Source: an uncultured Thermoleophilia bacterium
Lineage (GTDB): Bacteria; Actinomycetota; Thermoleophilia; Miltoncostaeales; Miltoncostaeaceae
Assembly: GCA_938017905.1 (NCBI GenBank)
Contig: CALIKX010000053.1
Coordinates: forward strand, 1 to 53,703
DNA: 53,703 nt
Reading direction: 5' to 3'
The notes under the pieces: generated by a model
Told to the model about the DNA's origin: nothing
Seen by the model: only the letters and a program-made list of their open reading frames with translations
The model's database searches: none
Part shown: positions 3,109 to 53,703 of the stretch, in pieces
Numbering within the stretch: position 1 is the first letter of the stretch
Layout of the letters: every line of letters starts with the position of its first letter
Made by a program: the position numbers and the translations under genes

Positions 3109-3181
3109 GGGGGATTAGCTCAGCTGGGAGAGCGCCTGCTTTGCAAGCAGGAGGTCACCGGTTCGATCCCGGTATCCTCCA
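3109..3181 (+). tRNA. tRNA-Ala (anticodon TGC)
   Basis: Full cloverleaf of 73 nt. Acceptor arms GGGGGAT and ATCCTCC pair with one G-U. The D stem begins at GCTC. The anticodon stem CCTGC/GCAGG encloses loop TTTGCAA with anticodon TGC at 3142-3144, and the T arm is ACCGG-TTCGATC-CCGGT. The discriminator is A at 3181 and CCA is not encoded. TACCGT at 3091-3096 could be the -10 box. Confidence 0.97.
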
Positions 3182-45595: not shown

Positions 45596-46960
45596 CTAGA
45601 CGCCTGCCTCCGCCACGACGCGGCCGTCGTGGATGGCCTGCTCCAGCGCGGCGTGGTCGGCGATGGACTGCGCCGCGTAGTCGCGGGCGAAGTCCGCCAT
45701 GGCCTCCTCGAACCGGGTGCCCGACCCCAGGTAGCCGGTGATCACGCAGGCGTCGCCGCCCCGCGCGTGGCCGTGCGCAAGGGTGCCCCCGCACAGCCGC
45801 GCGTAGTCGGCCAGCCACTTCGCGTCCATCGCCGCGACATCGGCGGAGCCCTTCATGTCGCGCAGCTGCCGCACGTAGTACTGGCGTCGGTTGCCCCCCG
45901 TGGACCAGCCCAGGAATATGTCGCTGGCCGCCTGCATGAGGCGCTGGCCCTCCACCACCCGGTGGCCCTGGTGGCGGTACGGGCTGCCGCCCGCGTACGG
46001 CGCAAGCACCGATGCGCGGGCCTCCTTCAGCTGGAGGAACAGCGGGTCGGCGTCGTCGCGGCCCACGAACAGAGCGATGCGGGCATCCAGGCCCACGGAG
46101 CCCACGCCCACCACCTTGCGCGCGCTGTCGGTGAACCGGTACCGGTCGAACAGGTGGCGGCGGTCATCGGCCAGGGTGTCGCGGTAGCGCTCCGTCACGC
46201 GCGCGACCACCTCCTGCTCGTCCCCCTCCAGCGGAACGTGCGTGAGGAGGGGCGGCTGGTCCACGATGTGCAGATCGCCGTCCGCATTGGCGGTGGCGAG
46301 CTTGCCGAGCGCGTGCAGGTTGTCGCGCCGCCGGGCCTTCTCCACGCCCTTCCGGAACCGCCGGCGTTGGGCCGCCCTGGTGATGAGCGGTTCGATGGCG
46401 TCGATGTCGATGCGCGCGTACCAGACCTCGAGCTCGGTCATGGCCGCCAGCCGGGCCATCACCTGCCGGTACGCCGACATAGCGGCGAGCACGGCGGTGC
46501 GGGCACCGTCCGCGGAGATGCCCTTGCCCAGTGCGGCGACGTGGATGCTGGCCGCGAGCCGCTTGGTGTCCCACTCGAACGGGGCCTGCAGGGTCTCGTC
46601 GAAGTCGTTGACGTCGAAGACCAGGTTGCGCTCGGGGGTGGCGTAGGCCCCGAAGTTGAGCAGGTGGCAGTCGCCGCAGCACTGCGTGCGAATCCCGGTG
46701 GAGGGCTGGCCGGCGATGTCGCGCGCCATCACCGCCGCGGCGCCGCGCAGGAATGCGAATGGCGAGGCGGCCATGCGCCCGTGCCGGATGGGCACCAGCT
46801 CGGGGATGCGCACGCGATCCTGCGCGGCGAGCACCCCGATCGGGTCAAACCGCCGGCGCGACGGTGTGAAGCCGGCGAGGGATGAGCGAGGGATGACCTT
46901 GCGCAGCGCCCGCCCGGCCTCGCGGCGCTCGTCGGGGGTGGGACGCGGGGCGGTGCGCAT
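45596..46960 (-). CDS. DUF2252 family protein
   Basis: Protein of 454 residues. Conserved DUF2252 features are FAFLRGAAAVMARD, TQCCGDCHLLNFGAYATPERNLVFDVNDFDET and WDTKRLAASIHVAA near residues 70-150, then VVGVGSVGLDARIALFVG, KEARASVL and VVEGQRLMQAASDIFLGW. The pattern (GDCHLxNFG, DVNDFDE) recalls the catalytic and metal residues of kinase-like phosphotransferases, so a small-molecule or protein kinase-like fold is plausible, but activity is unproven. ATG at 46960 lies only 5 bp after the T-tract side of the aceA terminator, and no ribosome binding site is seen. Confidence 0.88.
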   Translation of the reverse strand: MRTAPRPTPDERREAGRALRKVIPRSSLAGFTPSRRRFDPIGVLAAQDRVRIPELVPIRHGRMAASPFAFLRGAAAVMARDIAGQPSTGIRTQCCGDCHLLNFGAYATPERNLVFDVNDFDETLQAPFEWDTKRLAASIHVAALGKGISADGARTAVLAAMSAYRQVMARLAAMTELEVWYARIDIDAIEPLITRAAQRRRFRKGVEKARRRDNLHALGKLATANADGDLHIVDQPPLLTHVPLEGDEQEVVARVTERYRDTLADDRRHLFDRYRFTDSARKVVGVGSVGLDARIALFVGRDDADPLFLQLKEARASVLAPYAGGSPYRHQGHRVVEGQRLMQAASDIFLGWSTGGNRRQYYVRQLRDMKGSADVAAMDAKWLADYARLCGGTLAHGHARGGDACVITGYLGSGTRFEEAMADFARDYAAQSIADHAALEQAIHDGRVVAEAGV

Positions 46961-46964
46961 GCGG

Positions 46965-47006
46965 AAAAAGTAGCGCCCCCGCCCCGGCGGGACCGGGACG
47001 GGGGCG
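46965..47006 (-). terminator. Intrinsic terminator of aceA
   Basis: On the minus strand a 13-bp GC stem with one unpaired base (CGCCCCCGTCCCGG against its partner) is followed after four bases by TTTTT. It lies 30 bp after the aceA stop and just before the DUF2252 ATG. The best intrinsic terminator in the window. Confidence 0.8.
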
Positions 47007-47035
47007 CGGGCACTCACTGCCGATGCGCGTGGGCG

Positions 47036-49300
47036 CTACTTGCTGCCGCCGCCCTCGATGAGGGCCTGGCGACCGGCCGAGTCGGGTGCGACCCAGTCGG
47101 CCACCGTGTCGGCGTTGATGTCGGCCACGATGATGTCGCCGACCTCGTCATGCGCGTTGGTGAACAGCCCACGGCGCACCAGGGCGTCGGCGGCGTTCTT
47201 GTTGTCCTCGGTGGGCGTGAGGTAGTGGATCGACTTCGCCTTGTACCGGTGGATCAGGAACAGGTGCAGCAGCGTCATGAGGCGCTTGCGGCGCAGGTTC
47301 AGGTCGAACGTGTTCTGGTCACGCACCGACAGGAACACGCGACCGGCGCGGTCCTCCATGACGTTGAAGACGATGTTCGCGACCTTCTCGCCCTCGGCGT
47401 TCTTGATGGAGAGCTCGAGGATCTGCGAACCCGGCGTGTGGGGGCGCAGCGACACCGTGAGGTCCTCGGCGATGCCGTTGTGCTCCTTCCACGGGCCGAT
47501 CCACTCGGCCAGCACCTTCGGCGGGACCTCCGTCTGCACCAGGTGCTGGTGCTGGGTGGAACCCGCGCCCATGGCCTTGGTGGTGGCCGTCTGGCCGGTG
47601 ACCGCCGCCAGCGCAGCGTCGCCGCGTGGGCCGCCCACGAGGGTCTGCGGCGTGCGGTAGGGCGACTCCAGCAGCCGGAAGCGGCGCTGCAGGCGCGCCA
47701 GCGCGAGCATGCCGTCCTCCTTCAGCGACTGCGAGAACTCCGCGGCGGCAAGGCCGTCGATCTGGTGGCCGCCGTAGGTGATGAAGTTGAACACGAAGCC
47801 CATCTTCCCGATCTCCGCCGGGAAGGCGCGCATCTCGTCGTCGTTCATCCCCGTGGTGTCCCAGTTGAACGAGGGCGACAGGTTGTACGCCAGCATCTGG
47901 TTCGGGAACACCGCGTGGATGGCGTCGGCGAACTCCTTCGCGTCGGCCAGGTCGGCCGTCTTGGTCTCCATCCAGAGGATGTCGGCGTAGGGTGCCACGG
48001 CCAGCGACTTGGCTACCGCGTACGGAATGCCACCGCGGATCTGGAAGTAGCCCTCGGGCGTCTTCGCGCGGTCGGCGCTCCAGTCGGTCTCGATGCCCAT
48101 CTCGCGGGCCTTCTCGCGGATCTGGTACCAGCCCGCGCGGTGCGAGAACTCGTTCCACTGCTCGACGGTCATGCCGACGTCGGTACCCTCGTCGATGCGG
48201 AACTGGATGGCGTCGGCCACGGCCTCGGCCAGCGTGGACAGCTTGGCGCCGGCCTCCCACTCGGCCAGGAACGCGTCGGCGGCGGCGTCGAGGGTGTCCT
48301 CGGGCAGCGCGTCGGCGTCGCCAAGGTGGGCCTTGGCGATCTCGGCCACCTTGGCGGCCACGCCGGAACCTGCGAGCCACGTGTCGGCCTCTGCCTGCTC
48401 CTCGGGCGACACCGCGTAAAGCAGGTGCCCGTTCAGCTCGGAGATGCCGGCGTCGTGCAGCTGCTTGATGACGCCCAGGAACGCGGCGCGGTAGGCCGGC
48501 ACGGCCGTGCCGTTGACGCCCAGGATGAACGGCTGGTCGCGCTCGTCGCCACAGCCGTCCAGCAGGTTGGCCGCCTCAGCGTCGGTGCGGCACACGATGA
48601 TGCCGGGCACGCCCATGACGTCCAGCTGGAAGCGGGCCGCCGAGGCGCGCTTGATCTGCTCGTCGCTCGGCACCAGGACCTTGCCGCCCTGGTGGCCGCA
48701 CTTCTTAGCACCCGGCTTCTGGTCCTCGATGTGGTACCCGGGCACGCCCACCTCGGCGAACCGCCGGATGAGGTTGCGCACGTGGGCGTCACCGCCGTGG
48801 CCGGTGTCGGCGTCGGCGATGATGAACGGGCGGAAGTCGACCTCGGGGGTGGCGGCGCGCTCGGCCTCGCTCATGTGGGCGCGCATGTAGGTCTGGTTCC
48901 TGTCCGCCGTGAGCAGCGCGCGGACGATGGCCGCGGCCTCGTCCGGCACCTGGCTCAGCGGGTACGAGGCGAGGTCGGGCCCCGGGTCCTCGTTGATGGA
49001 GCCCTTGGCGCTGGTGGCCCAGCCGCCCAGGTAGATGCCCTCGATGCCGGCGCGCTTCTGGGCGACCGCCTGGCCCGGCGAGTACGGCCCGTACGTGGTG
49101 ATGGACTTGCCCTCGGCGAACAGCTCGCGCAGCCGGGCATAGAAGCCCTCTGCGGCCTGTCGGGCCACGGTGTAGTCCTGGTCGATGGTGCCCTTCTGCT
49201 CGGCCACCATGCGCGCGGAGTAGATGCGGGTGATGTCCGCGAAGCGCGGAGACCCCATGTACTCCTTGGTCTGCGTGACCTCGGCGTCGAATGCCGACAT
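47036..49300 (-). CDS. aceA: Isocitrate lyase, long AceA2/ICL2 type
   Basis: Glyoxylate-shunt enzyme of 754 residues cleaving isocitrate to glyoxylate and succinate. ATG at 49300 with AAGGGAAGG upstream. The barrel carries [25 protein letters not shown] (metal Asp), [13 protein letters not shown] with catalytic Cys201, and [13 protein letters not shown]. Unlike ~430-residue ICL1, it has an insert and a C-terminal domain (about 600-754) as in mycobacterial ICL2, where that domain binds acetyl-CoA and activates the enzyme; regulation here is inferred. No malate synthase gene is in the window. A strong terminator follows. Confidence 0.95.
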
Positions 49301-49434
49301 GAACCTTCCCTTGTCTCGGACTGCAGGGGACCGGGCATTCTAAGCAGGGACGCGCCCCCTCTGGCCGCAGCTCGTGCACTGCTCAGCGTGGCCTGCGATT
49401 GAAAAGGGCCGTATGTACCGGAACTGGTGGGCTC

Positions 49435-49440
49435 TACACT
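49435..49440 (+). promoter_or_regulatory. -10-like TACACT before the formylglycine enzyme gene
   Basis: TACACT, 8 nt, then ATG at 49449, giving a leaderless start. It competes with an upstream in-frame ATG at 49413 that has AAAAGGG 4 nt before it. Confidence 0.35.
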
Positions 49441-49448
49441 CGGGCGCA

Positions 49449-50306
49449 ATGACGGGGGCCGGAGAGCAGCCAGTGCAGTGGAATGACCTTGTCGACATCC
49501 CATCGGGTGAGCTGCTCATGGGTTCCGCGATGACCTTCTACCCCGAAGAGTTCCCCCAGAGGCGCGTGGAGGTGAGCGCCTTCCAGATCGGGCGTGGACC
49601 CGTCACGAACGCGCAGTTCGCTGAATTCTGCCGTGCGTCGGGTTATGTGACGGTCGCCGAGCACGGCGCCGAGCCAGGGTCGCTGGTCTTTGTGGAAACC
49701 CCGGGCCCGGTGGCACTCGATGAGTGGAGACAGTGGTGGCGTTGGGTGCCGGGGGCATCGTGGCGGGCTCCTGAGGGGCCAGGAACCACCATGGACGGGC
49801 GCGAGAACCACCCCGTAGTTCACATCGCATACTCCGATGCCCTTGCCTATGCCCGGTGGAGTGAGGGAGATCTTCCCACCGAGGCCGAGTGGGAATGGGC
49901 AGCGCGTGGTGGGCTGGTGGGCGCAACGTACGCGTGGGGGGAGGAGCCCAATCGCTACGAGCGCCTCCATGCCAATACGTGGCAAGGGGATTTTCCGTTT
50001 GATAACCATGGGGCACATGGGTGGCGAGGCACCTCACCGGTGGGTGAGTTTCCCCCGAATGGATACGGCCTGGCAGACGTGACGGGAAATGTCTGGGAGT
50101 GGACGCGAACAGTGTGGGCGGGGTCGCCCGGTGAGGGGCCGTGCTGCTCGGGCGCGCCGGCGCATGACGGGGACCTCAAGGTAATAAAGGGCGGATCTCA
50201 CCTGTGCTCACCGCAGTACTGCCTTCGTTACCGACCAGCAGCCCGGTCTCCGCAGGAGGTAGCCGCCTCGACCTCCCATATCGGTTTTCGCATCTGTCGC
50301 CGCTAG
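49449..50306 (+). CDS. Formylglycine-generating enzyme (sulfatase-activating)
   Basis: FGE/SUMF1-type oxidase of 285 residues that converts the Cys of a sulfatase CxPxR motif to formylglycine. Opening VDIPSGELLMGS, FYPEEFPQRRVEVSAFQIGRGPVTNAQFAEF; middle LPTEAEWEWAARGG and GNVWEWT; end VIKGGSHLCSPQYCLRYRPAARS with both catalytic cysteines (Cys253, Cys258) and HIGFRICRR. An ATG at 49413 is an alternative start. Its probable client, the type I sulfatase, is encoded convergently next to it. GC content is clearly lower than in surrounding genes. Confidence 0.95.
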   Translation: MTGAGEQPVQWNDLVDIPSGELLMGSAMTFYPEEFPQRRVEVSAFQIGRGPVTNAQFAEFCRASGYVTVAEHGAEPGSLVFVETPGPVALDEWRQWWRWVPGASWRAPEGPGTTMDGRENHPVVHIAYSDALAYARWSEGDLPTEAEWEWAARGGLVGATYAWGEEPNRYERLHANTWQGDFPFDNHGAHGWRGTSPVGEFPPNGYGLADVTGNVWEWTRTVWAGSPGEGPCCSGAPAHDGDLKVIKGGSHLCSPQYCLRYRPAARSPQEVAASTSHIGFRICRR

Positions 50307-50343
50307 GCGCGTGACGCCCGGGTTGATGCCGGGCGTCACGCGC
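50307..50343. terminator. Bidirectional hairpin between FGE and sulfatase genes
   Basis: GCGCGTGACGCCCGG and CCGGGCGTCACGCGC form a perfect 15-bp stem with a 7-nt loop, directly after the FGE stop and 10 bp before the sulfatase stop on the other strand. Confidence 0.8.
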
Positions 50344-50352
50344 AAGGCGGAT

Positions 50353-52716
50353 CTACTGAATCTTCATCGCAAGCCGGAAACGCTCCAGCGGGTCGACGTC
50401 ATGGTCCTTTGCGTCATCACCTACAGCGATCTCGACGTATTTGATGGTTGCATCGGTAAGGACGCTTTCGGCGATGGAGTACGACCCGACAGGGGTGCCA
50501 GCGTCGCGGCCGACGTTGGCGGTCTCCTCTGCGGACCAGATCATCGGGTGGGTCATCTCAACCCTGCCTCGGCCGACCTCCTCCCCGTCGACCTGGAGTG
50601 TGACGTCGCCACCTTTTCCGAGGCCACCGCCGTCGTAGTCAAACTGGAAAAGAACCTGGTGTTCGCCGGCCCCCATGGCGTGGTCAGCAAGCGTCTCGTA
50701 GAAGTGGATCCCAAGCGTGTTGTAGACGAAACCCAGCCGACCACTCGTGAGGTACACAGACCATCCCCCGAACTTACCGCCCTGGGCCATGATGACCCCG
50801 CTTGCGTCCTGCTTGTCGAGTGTGATGTGAGCCTCAAGGCTCCAGCTCTTGTTCTTGGTGTCGACAACGGAATGCTCCGAGAGCCGCCCCATGCTCGGGA
50901 AGAACATCTGCCGGTCGCCGTGGACCAGGGTTGGCCGACCGGCGGCTTCGGGAATCAAGCGTTCGGCTTTCCGGTCGTCGATCGGCAGGACGTTGTACTT
51001 CGTCGCCTCGATGAGGAAGAGCCGCTGTAGTTCAGCAAGCTTCTCAGGATTCTCAGCCGCGAGGTCTTTCGCCTGCGAGAAATCAACGCTGCCGTCGTAG
51101 AGCTCCCACGTGTCGTCATCGAGCGCAGGGGTATCGCCCGTCAACTTCCATGGCACTTCGTGAATAGTCACCGCGGACCATCCCCTGTGGTAGATGCCAC
51201 GGTTGCCAACCATCTCGAAGTACTGGAGGTCGTGCCGCTCGACGGCCTCTGGCTCGGAGAAGGTGTAGTTCATGCTTGTGCCCTCCATGGGGCTTTGCAT
51301 GATTCCGTCGACGAACTGCGGCTCAGGAATGCCCGCCGCCTCCAGGATTGTCGGCGCAACGTCGATGACGTGTGCGAATTGATCGCGTATCTCGCCCTTC
51401 GCAGCGATCCCGTCAGGCCAGTGGACGATCGTCGCGTTTCGCGTTCCTCCCCAGTGCGAGGCGATCTGCTTCGTCCACTGGTACGGGGTGCACATGGCGT
51501 GCGCCCAACCCGTTGAGTAGTGGTTGTATGAGTCGGGTCCACCGAACTGGTCGATCACCGTCTGCATAAACTCGGGCGTCTCGACGGCTGCCATTCCGTT
51601 GAAGTTGGCCATCTCATTGAAAGAGCCATTCATCGTGCCCTCAGCGGACGCTCCGTTGTCCCCGATGATGTAGTAGATCAGCGTGTTTTCAAGAGCGCCG
51701 ATTTCATCGATGTGGTTGATGACGCGGCCGACCTGATGGTCAGTGTGCTCAAGGAAGGCAGCGTAGATCTCCATCTGGCGCGCGAGGACGGGCTTCATTT
51801 CGTCGGGCATGTCATCCCAAGCCGGGATTTCTTCGGGACGTGCGGTCAACTCAGCGTGCTCGGGAATGATCCCGAGCTCCTTTTGGCGCGCGAAGGTCTG
51901 CTCGCGGATCGCGTCCCAGCCCGCATCGAACTGGCCCGCGTAGCGATCACGCCACGCCTCTGGCACATGGTGTGGCGCATGGGTCGCCCCGGGGGCGAAG
52001 TAGATGAAGAAGGGCTTGTCGGCCATCAGCGCCTTCTGCTGCTCAATCCACCCGATGGCCTTGTCGGCCAAGTCCTCAGTGAGGTGATAGCCCTCCTCCG
52101 GCGACTTCGGTGGATCGATGGGCGTCAGTCCCTCGTATAGCGCCGGGTCATATTGGTTCGCTTCGCCCGCGATGAAGCCATAGAAGTATTCGAATCCGCC
52201 GCCACCGGCAGGCCAGGCGTCGAAGGGGCCCATTGGGCTCGTGAGGTATGGGGCGACCTCGTGGCACTTACCGAACTGGGCGGTCGAGTAGCCGTTGTAC
52301 TTGAGCGTTTTTGCGAGTGGCGCTTTGGACTTCGGGATGATCGCGTTATTGCCTGGCGCAGAGGTGGCCATTTCGGTGATGCAACCGAAGCCAACGGAGT
52401 GGTGGTTGCGGCCGGTGAGCAAAGCGGCGCGGGTCGGGGCACAAAGGGCGGTGGTGTGAAAGCGGTTGTAGGAAAGCCCGCCACTGGCAAGGCGCTCCGC
52501 CGTAGGGGTGTGCGCTGGGCCCCCGAAAACGCTTGGCGCACCATAGCCAACGTCATCAAGCAGTATGACCAGGACGTTCGGGGCGCCCTCGGGCGGCCGA
52601 ATCGGCGTGATTGGGGGGTATGTGGAGTCCGGATGCTTTGCATCGAATGTGGTCAGCCCCGGTTTGGGGAGGTCGGGGATGGGGAGCACCTGCCGCGGCT
52701 GATCATCACCCTTCAT
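50353..52716 (-). CDS. Type I (formylglycine) arylsulfatase, AtsA-like
   Basis: Sulfate ester hydrolase of 787 residues without signal peptide, so cytoplasmic. ATG at 52716 with TAGGAG 7 nt upstream. Metal site LVILLDDVGYGAPSVFGG; the Cys92 to be modified is in LCAPTRAALLTGRNHHSVG (CxPxR). Also GYSTAQFGKCHE, FFIYFAPGATHAPHHVP and YIIGDNGASAEGTMNG. The last ~220 residues form a beta-rich jelly-roll-like domain (WSLEAHITLDKQDASGVIMAQGG). Length and layout resemble the long AtsA type of mycobacteria, which also pairs with an FGE gene. Lower GC than neighbours suggests transfer. Confidence 0.95.
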   Translation of the reverse strand: MKGDDQPRQVLPIPDLPKPGLTTFDAKHPDSTYPPITPIRPPEGAPNVLVILLDDVGYGAPSVFGGPAHTPTAERLASGGLSYNRFHTTALCAPTRAALLTGRNHHSVGFGCITEMATSAPGNNAIIPKSKAPLAKTLKYNGYSTAQFGKCHEVAPYLTSPMGPFDAWPAGGGGFEYFYGFIAGEANQYDPALYEGLTPIDPPKSPEEGYHLTEDLADKAIGWIEQQKALMADKPFFIYFAPGATHAPHHVPEAWRDRYAGQFDAGWDAIREQTFARQKELGIIPEHAELTARPEEIPAWDDMPDEMKPVLARQMEIYAAFLEHTDHQVGRVINHIDEIGALENTLIYYIIGDNGASAEGTMNGSFNEMANFNGMAAVETPEFMQTVIDQFGGPDSYNHYSTGWAHAMCTPYQWTKQIASHWGGTRNATIVHWPDGIAAKGEIRDQFAHVIDVAPTILEAAGIPEPQFVDGIMQSPMEGTSMNYTFSEPEAVERHDLQYFEMVGNRGIYHRGWSAVTIHEVPWKLTGDTPALDDDTWELYDGSVDFSQAKDLAAENPEKLAELQRLFLIEATKYNVLPIDDRKAERLIPEAAGRPTLVHGDRQMFFPSMGRLSEHSVVDTKNKSWSLEAHITLDKQDASGVIMAQGGKFGGWSVYLTSGRLGFVYNTLGIHFYETLADHAMGAGEHQVLFQFDYDGGGLGKGGDVTLQVDGEEVGRGRVEMTHPMIWSAEETANVGRDAGTPVGSYSIAESVLTDATIKYVEIAVGDDAKDHDVDPLERFRLAMKIQ

Positions 52717-52754
52717 AAGTCACTCCTAAATTGAACGTCGGTCTGGCCTTTGCT

Positions 52755-52768
52755 GCGCTTGTAAGCGC
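52755..52768. repeat. Inverted repeat upstream of the sulfatase gene
   Basis: GCGCTT-GT-AAGCGC, a perfect 6-bp inverted repeat 39 bp before the sulfatase ATG, in the intergenic region 52717-52906. Candidate operator; nothing else identifiable lies in that gap apart from the next gene's -10-like box. Confidence 0.3.
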
Positions 52769-52892
52769 GGCTCATATCCCGCCGTCGCAACGGGCATTAC
52801 GAGAGAAAGTATCACCGTGTGACGGAACGTCTGGGCGTTCGGGTGTCGGCGGCGCATCAGCCCTCGGGATGCGGCTCCGTACCCGCAGGGGA

Positions 52893-52898
52893 TACGCT
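52893..52898 (+). promoter_or_regulatory. -10-like TACGCT before the DUF5718 gene
   Basis: TACGCT, 8 nt, ATG at 52907, no ribosome binding site. Inferred leaderless promoter. Confidence 0.35.
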
Positions 52899-52906
52899 CG
52901 TAGTCG

Positions 52907-53703
52907 ATGATCGTCGTGAATCTCTCCGGCCTGCGCTCTGTGGCAGGGATCGGCGTGGCCGGGAACTTCGCCGGGCACCTCGAGCAGGCGGGCGAGGCGG
53001 TGGACTTCGCCAACGTGGTCCCCACGGCCGCCGAGGCTCCCAAGGGGATCTTCCCCTGGTACGTGCCCGGCCGCGACGACTTCCTCGGGGTGTTCCCGGT
53101 GACGCACGACCTGCTGCGCCTGCCCGACGAGCCCGGCGTGAGCCTGCAGATCGAGCCGGAGGCCGGCGTGCTCGCGCGGTTGTCCTATGACGCTTCCGGG
53201 TGGGTCAGCGCCGTCGCGCCCGAGGCCGTCGTGGCCTGGAACGACTGCAGCATCCGTCGCGAGGGCGCGCGGAAGATCAGCCACAAGAAGAACTGGGGCC
53301 CCGCGTCCAAGGGCGCGGCCGCCCATGGGTTTGCCGTGCACGACATCGACGCCGGTGGCGCCCTCGCGCCCCTGCGCATCGCGTCGTTCATGCGCCGTGA
53401 TGGGCGTGCGCATGCGTACGGGGTGGACAGCCCTGCGCGTGGGTACTCCTATGCGGGCACGGCACTCATCGACTGGATGATCGACCGGCTGCGCAATCAG
53501 GAGGGCGCCGACGACACGCCGCTCGAGCCCGTGGGCCGATACCTGGACGCCGCGGGTCGCCCGGACCACGCGCTAATCGGCATCGGCGCCACCCGCTATA
53601 CGGACTTCGGCGAGAGCACGTATCTGGTGCGGGGCGACGAGAGCATCGTGATCGTCTACGACGAGCGCGACTCCTCTCCGGAGGCCGTGGCGGCCGCGGT
53701 CGC
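52907..53703 (+). CDS. DUF5718-family protein (3' end outside window)
   Basis: Frame open from the ATG at 52907 to the window end, 265 codons visible. The N-terminus GLRSVAGIGVAGNFAGHLEQ, then APKGIFPWYVPG, FLGVFPVTHD, LQIEPEAGVLARLSYD, AWNDCSIRREGARKISHKKNWGPASKG are the conserved blocks of DUF5718. The acidic/His/Lys arrangement and 'NDCSIR...KNWG' recall fumarylacetoacetate hydrolase-like folds, but no reaction is established. Third-position GC bias returns to the high value of the bulk of the window, unlike the sulfatase genes just upstream. Confidence 0.85.
   Translation, partial: MIVVNLSGLRSVAGIGVAGNFAGHLEQAGEAVDFANVVPTAAEAPKGIFPWYVPGRDDFLGVFPVTHDLLRLPDEPGVSLQIEPEAGVLARLSYDASGWVSAVAPEAVVAWNDCSIRREGARKISHKKNWGPASKGAAAHGFAVHDIDAGGALAPLRIASFMRRDGRAHAYGVDSPARGYSYAGTALIDWMIDRLRNQEGADDTPLEPVGRYLDAAGRPDHALIGIGATRYTDFGESTYLVRGDESIVIVYDERDSSPEAVAAAV

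Follow-up and report, generated by a model that had tools for sequence, protein, structure and literature searches.

A segment of 3.56 kb, which carries the genes of a sulfatase and of a formylglycine-generating enzyme (FGE) near the right-hand end of a 53,703-nucleotide stretch of DNA from an uncultured Thermoleophilia bacterium of the family Miltoncostaeaceae, was probably acquired horizontally, at a site where the nearest relative has approximately 85 bp; of its two products, FGE would activate the sulfatase, which would in turn feed sulfate assimilation. The analysed stretch (the window) is the whole of contig C53 of the 1.54-Mb assembly G000, which is 95% complete. The acquisition is indicated by an insertion site that is free of the pair in near relatives, by a foreign base composition, and by incongruent gene trees. 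Most likely, the pair constitutes a self-sufficient cassette that would take sulfate from organosulfates.

Insertion site and its occupancy in relatives

Comparison of the window with G010, the nearest relative, by blastn yields matches at 46510-49349 and 52908-53703, between which G010 has 85 bp and the window 3,558 bp. The aceA genes of the two genomes are 98% identical, and the DUF5718 gene, which adjoins aceA in G010, is 93% identical. The opening 38 bases of the right-hand match, at the start of DUF5718, are divergent in the alignment, so that the right junction may lie as far as 52946. An earlier reading of the sequence, referred to here as the original prediction, had placed a cassette at 49374-52740; the place of the pair stands, as does its position between aceA and DUF5718, both of which were identified by profile matches, while the limits must be moved, foreign DNA beginning near 49350 and ending around 52908, or at 52946 at the latest.

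Occupancy of the site was judged in a 20-genome set of the genus that contains G000 itself, and wider searches were made in a family set of 42 genomes. A single contig carries both aceA and DUF5718 in 15 of the 19 other congeners; the two genes are 133-618 bp apart there, and neither an FGE nor a sulfatase gene is present in the interval in any of these 15. The remaining four are not judgeable, since G003 and G013 offer one flank each and usable flanks are lacking in G012 and G019. The interval is a small variable site, measuring 133-138 bp in six genomes, 220-228 bp in three and 610-618 bp in six, and holding the cassette in G000. The 610-618 bp intervals contain a small gene with a signal-like start (L155:3134-3739; G001, G006, G007, G008, G011), parts of which also occur in G003 and G013.

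The two proteins are rare in the genus in their close form. Sulfatase matches occur in 4/20 genomes, namely G000 itself (100%), G009 (97% in a contig-end fragment of 159 residues), G012 (42%) and, weakly, G010; the weak matches at 28-30% in G000, G009 and G010 represent another sulfatase. Some FGE match exists in 19/20 genomes; the protein of G000 apart, these matches, 19 in number, show 31-37% identity, the one tested, from G010, being EgtB above cut-off. A close FGE was found in G000 alone.

The edges of the segment are plain, as had been claimed. No tRNA lies near it (the two of the window are at 3109 and 27638), no exact word longer than 8 nt is common to the two edges (49301-49420 compared with 52717-52960), no flanking repeat pair was found, and there is no recombinase among the genes annotated around the edges, the contig stopping 0.8 kb to the right of the segment; features beyond that end were judged solely through contig C15 of the same assembly and through relatives. 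An island borne by an integrase or transposon was accordingly rejected, as there is no recombinase gene, tRNA edge or flanking repeat.

Composition of the segment

The pair consists of the lowest-GC genes of the window, with the least host-like codons. In 1-kb windows wholly within 49501-53000 the GC content is 0.606-0.642, as against 0.654 in the lowest 1-kb window off the cassette; the FGE gene has a GC content of 0.646 and the sulfatase gene one of 0.613. GC at third codon positions (GC3) is 0.711 for FGE and 0.770 for the sulfatase, compared with a mean of 0.894 (sd 0.036, minimum 0.810) for 34 other open reading frames (ORFs), which were chosen by a simple script and are uncurated. A codon-adaptation-like score gives 0.443 and 0.495, respectively, versus a mean of 0.714 (sd 0.068, minimum 0.541) for the same 34 ORFs. 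Sliding GC, GC3 and codon score thus all set the pair apart as outliers, in agreement with the lower GC and more varied third positions first remarked upon, and the mismatch with the codon usage of the rest of the window favours acquisition.

The genes converge on a hairpin with a perfect 15-bp stem and a 7-nt loop; the fold of 50300-50352 has an energy of -46.4 kcal/mol (z -8.6). The hairpin is absent from the output of the terminator scan and is followed by no T run on either side, so that, of the shared 15-bp terminator originally described, the convergence and the stem are observed and the terminator itself is putative.

Gene trees and source

In the FGE tree the window protein groups with those of G043, G044 and G045 (support 100/100, 5 rows), apart from five family FGEs, which do not form one clade among themselves; in the sulfatase tree it groups with loci L009-L013 (100/100, 6 rows), apart from ten family rows. 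Since the loci L010, L011 and L012 belong to G043, G044 and G045, both trees indicate one source group (L009-L013, genomes G042-G046). Vertical inheritance, on which the original prediction could have foundered, is unsupported for either protein, both standing outside the family copies with fully supported sister groups elsewhere. The sulfatases of the source group are 74-77% and its FGEs 62-66% identical to those of the window, and the GC content of its loci is 0.54-0.61; with best identities of 77% and 66%, none of these genomes is the donor itself. A full-length aceA of the window type was not found in the seven genomes behind L009-L014 and L016, which gave one weak partial match. Among plasmids, 227 records match aceA, every one of them below 60% identity and none with 80% coverage of the query.

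The sulfatase tree comprises 38 of 91 rows, and the place of several long family rows in it, above all L004, is unsure; L013 was retained in the set despite a stop or unread codon at the CAPTR arginine. The FGE tree holds three genes twice (L010/L201, L014/L206, L043/L203). Titles of the source-group records vary, with UBA7422, Nanopelagicales, Micrococcales and a single 'Rubrivirga' among them, most being titled Actinobacteria, Nanopelagicales or Micrococcales. It is of note that L010 (PBTV01000032.1), filed under Rubrivirga (Rhodothermota), has about 92% DNA identity with L009 and L013 of actinobacterial metagenome-assembled genomes (MAGs); to judge from this likeness, the L010 contig is probably misbinned.

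Carriers were also sought. Among 287 plasmid records with related sulfatases, three are at 60-80% identity, one of them in Mycolicibacterium alvei at 64%, and none is close enough to be a donor, so that plasmid carriage was set aside. Viral carriage was likewise rejected: the sulfatase scan of viral contigs gave no match to any of its patterns, and the FGE scan gave only 6 distant loci, at 31-41% identity over part of the protein.

Alternative origins

Several observations weigh against a single acquisition of a working pair. The function of both proteins is assigned by homology only, there is neither a mobility gene nor a target-site duplication, and the groups used in the approximately unbiased (AU) tests described below were chosen after the trees were known. 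In addition, no donor was found with the same convergent arrangement. Within the source group, FGE was found in three of the five genomes: only L010, among L009-L013, has an FGE gene in the flank that was fetched, in divergent orientation at a distance of about 2.7 kb, that of G044 and G045 lies on another contig than the sulfatase, and none was found in G042 and G046 at E <= 1e-30. More broadly, an FGE gene is present in the fetched flanks of at least 19 of the 80 kept sulfatase loci, a lower bound because several loci are cut by contig ends, and in two of these (L081 and L082) it is adjacent and convergent. In the latter loci, from Demequina maris and D. rhizosphaerae, the convergent FGE gene lies directly behind a 66% identical sulfatase gene, as in the window, but the FGE is merely 50% identical to that of the window and stands elsewhere in the tree; the source group, in contrast, is sister to the window in both trees, but its genes are without convergent pairing.

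The lack of side-by-side genes in the nearest loci, together with the varied contents of the aceA-DUF5718 interval in congeners, could suggest that the sulfatase and FGE genes were acquired separately and joined at the same variable site, which we regard as improbable in view of the equally low GC of both genes, the one source group in both trees and the lack of host DNA between them. Given these last two points and the single pair of junctions, the sulfatase and FGE genes likely entered as one cassette in one event.

It is very improbable that the pair is ancestral, was lost across most of the genus and was kept in G000 with drifting composition. Related sulfatases and FGEs do exist in other genera of the family, FGE being matched at E <= 1e-40 in 6/42 genomes; the family copies, however, group elsewhere, and AU tests reject the joins tried, namely those of FGE with the G027/G032/G035 clade (p 0.006), G039 (p 0.0003) or G040 (p 8e-15), and those of the sulfatase with G039a (p 3e-63) or with G033a and G039b (p 0.003). 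Moreover, the interval of G010, with its 98% identical aceA, is without the pair, and both genes have foreign codons.

A further occurrence of the right-hand join bears on the integrity of the assembly. On the 3.9-kb contig G009:C90 (L156), the start of a sulfatase gene is followed by DUF5718 and cysH, cysD and cysN (cysHDN); 90% DNA identity and a 52-bp length difference to the window make this a different sequence with the same sulfatase-DUF5718 join. G009 also has, on G009:C25, its own aceA-DUF5718 pair without cassette, where DUF5718 is 73% like that of the window versus 95% on C90. The G009 bin is listed as 5% contaminated, and C90 may be a foreign contig in it or a second locus. FGE was not seen in G009, and C90 stops inside the sulfatase gene. 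The left join, between aceA and FGE, is seen in the window only. A chimera of assembly or binning, with the segment coming from another organism of the sample, is very improbable: the segment does lie within 1 kb of a contig end, and C15 opens with another DUF5718 copy of 95% DNA identity, so that more than one strain is probably present in the bin, but both flanks match G010 and the right-hand join is repeated in the different sequence of G009:C90.

Products of the two genes

Table 1. Coordinates of the segment, its parts and its flanks in the window
Feature	Position	Strand	Remarks
aceA, isocitrate lyase, 754 aa	47036..49300	-	left chromosomal flank; PF00463 384 bits; TIGR01346 above cut-off
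Conserved stretch upstream of aceA	49301..49349	.	final host DNA left of the junction; 98.7% identity with G010 to 49349, then no match
Probable acquired segment, 3,558 bp	49350..52907	.	G010 has 85 bp there; right end uncertain up to 52946
FGE gene	49413..50306	+	longest frame from GTG 49374; ATG 49413 or 49449 likelier; PF03781; motif GGSHLCSPQYCLR
Perfect 15-bp hairpin between convergent genes	50308..50344	.	possible two-way terminator without a T tract
Sulfatase gene, 787 aa, CAPTR	50353..52716	-	PF00884; AtsA match; weak C-terminal concanavalin/laminin-G-like match below Pfam cut-off
DUF5718 gene, 5' part	52907..53703	+	right chromosomal flank; contig end falls within the gene; PF18985 249 bits

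The description of the pair as a formylglycine-making enzyme and a CAPTR sulfatase is borne out by both profiles and both motifs (Table 1). The PF03781 domain of the FGE (243.8 bits, profile positions 3-254 of 255) spans the whole protein, and its nearest solved chains are formylglycine-generating enzymes. The GGSxxCxxxxCxR motif is kept in the window protein (GGSHLCSPQYCLR) and in 34/34 rows of the FGE tree set; its CxxxxC presumably provides the two copper-binding cysteines. The reaction expected of an FGE is the conversion of the CxPxR cysteine to formylglycine, which in E. coli can take place to some extent without FGE. EgtB and SenA were rejected as identities for this gene, with 88.7 bits against an NCBIfam cut-off of 360 and 83.1 bits against one of 420, respectively. 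In the longest frame, homology sets in no earlier than about residue 30-38, so that translation probably starts at one of the two ATG codons rather than at the GTG.

The sulfatase matches the full PF00884 profile (198.4 bits), has the CxPxR motif as CAPTR followed by LTGR (CAPTRAALLTGR), and aligns over residues 45-564 with AtsA of Pseudomonas aeruginosa (1hdh; E 9.7e-60), with which it shares, by sequence, the fold family of formylglycine-type S1 enzymes. These features identify it, at the sequence level, as a formylglycine-dependent S1 sulfatase of AtsA type. No NCBIfam sulfatase model reaches its cut-off for this protein, and no substrate is therefore assigned. P. aeruginosa AtsA is assigned to SulfAtlas subfamily S1_4 (PMC5066984), a label that is AtsA's own, the window sulfatase having about 220 more C-terminal residues.

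A possible link to sulfate assimilation

On G000:C15, as on G009:C90, DUF5718 is followed by cysH, cysD and cysN, which on C15 score above or near their NCBIfam cut-offs. At least cysH lies behind DUF5718 in 10/15 congeners within the fetched stretch. The other five did not show it: the contigs of G007, G011 and G015 stop early, and 3.5 and 5 kb were read of G014 and G009:C25. Elsewhere, a sulfate permease gene lies beside the related sulfatase of L011, and no sulfur-related neighbours were found at the sulfatases of L010, L012 and L013. From this neighbour evidence, that is, the DUF5718-cysHDN order and the L011 permease, we infer sulfur supply as the use of the pair.

C15:1-758 overlaps the end of the window (52946-53703) over 758 bases at 95.3% identity, giving two DUF5718 versions in one bin. 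The beginning of C15 coincides with the end of the divergent DUF5718 start, which looks like a mixture of strains that differ in their upstream DNA. C15 continues the window in homologous form, probably from another strain.

The acquisition of a functional pair can be envisaged as follows. The segment would have come from a lineage related to the medium-GC group of MAGs, entering without an integrase and taking the place of some 85 bp in the aceA-DUF5718 interval, which lies upstream of the sulfate-assimilation genes DUF5718-cysH-cysD-cysN. By homology, FGE would act on the newly made sulfatase and oxidise the cysteine of its CAPTR motif to formylglycine, presumably in the cytosol, no signal stretch being visible by eye in either translation. 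The sulfatase would then hydrolyse a sulfate ester, and the freed sulfate could pass into the host's own CysDN-CysH route.

An older sulfatase in the same genome

G000 encodes a second PF00884 protein (G000:C75:4304-5857; L002, L209), with a CCPSR motif, a signal-like start and host-like codons (GC3 0.90), which is probably exported. Three of the 42 family genomes have it at E <= 1e-30, the others being G010 (97%; G010:C102, L210) and G009 (86%; G009:C24, L211), in both of which the motif is intact. In these two genomes no FGE was found, only an EgtB-like match, and the radical-SAM sulfatase maturase model TIGR03942 gave no match; in the genus this model has weak matches in 8/20 genomes and reaches its cut-off in 0/20. 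Missing sequence, another maturase or idle sulfatases are possible explanations for these orphans. G033, which is 98% complete, has two CxPxR sulfatases (C68, C48; L172, L180) and no FGE match at E <= 0.001, radical-SAM maturases not having been searched there.

The acquired FGE might act as a genome-wide maturation switch, converting the older CCPSR sulfatase in addition to its own, a suggestion that we consider rather doubtful. CxPxR sulfatases thus occur in nearly complete genomes that yielded no known maturase, a setting in which the need for FGE is directly testable. If the orphans were instead active without FGE, the family would have an undescribed formylglycine route or FGE-independent S1 enzymes, and the two CxPxR sulfatases of G033 point to the same FGE-free alternative.

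Comparison with known systems

In the mycobacterial AtsA/FGE system a sulfatase is accompanied by the gene of its cognate FGE nearby, and the analogy with the window pair is fair as regards the roles of the parts. Both proteins are members of known families, and what gives the case its value is the clean insertion, the sulfate-assimilation setting and the question of the older sulfatase. It presents a cleanly bounded gain of a client enzyme together with its activating enzyme, beside a pathway able to use the product. In the open-access literature we found no report tying an arylsulfatase gene cluster to both sulfate assimilation and horizontal transfer in Actinobacteria, which is no claim of absence from print.

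Transfer of formylglycine-dependent sulfatases is already known from a Shinella plasmid, which carries a formylglycine-dependent acesulfame sulfatase that was cloned in E. coli (PMC11500405). The Shinella gene, like the probably acquired sulfatase gene of the window, is thus a formylglycine-dependent sulfatase gene on mobile DNA. The authors assign the Shinella FGEs to other replicons of the host, the sulfatase moving without FGE (PMC11500405), whereas the sulfatase and FGE genes of the window are neighbours in the chromosome.

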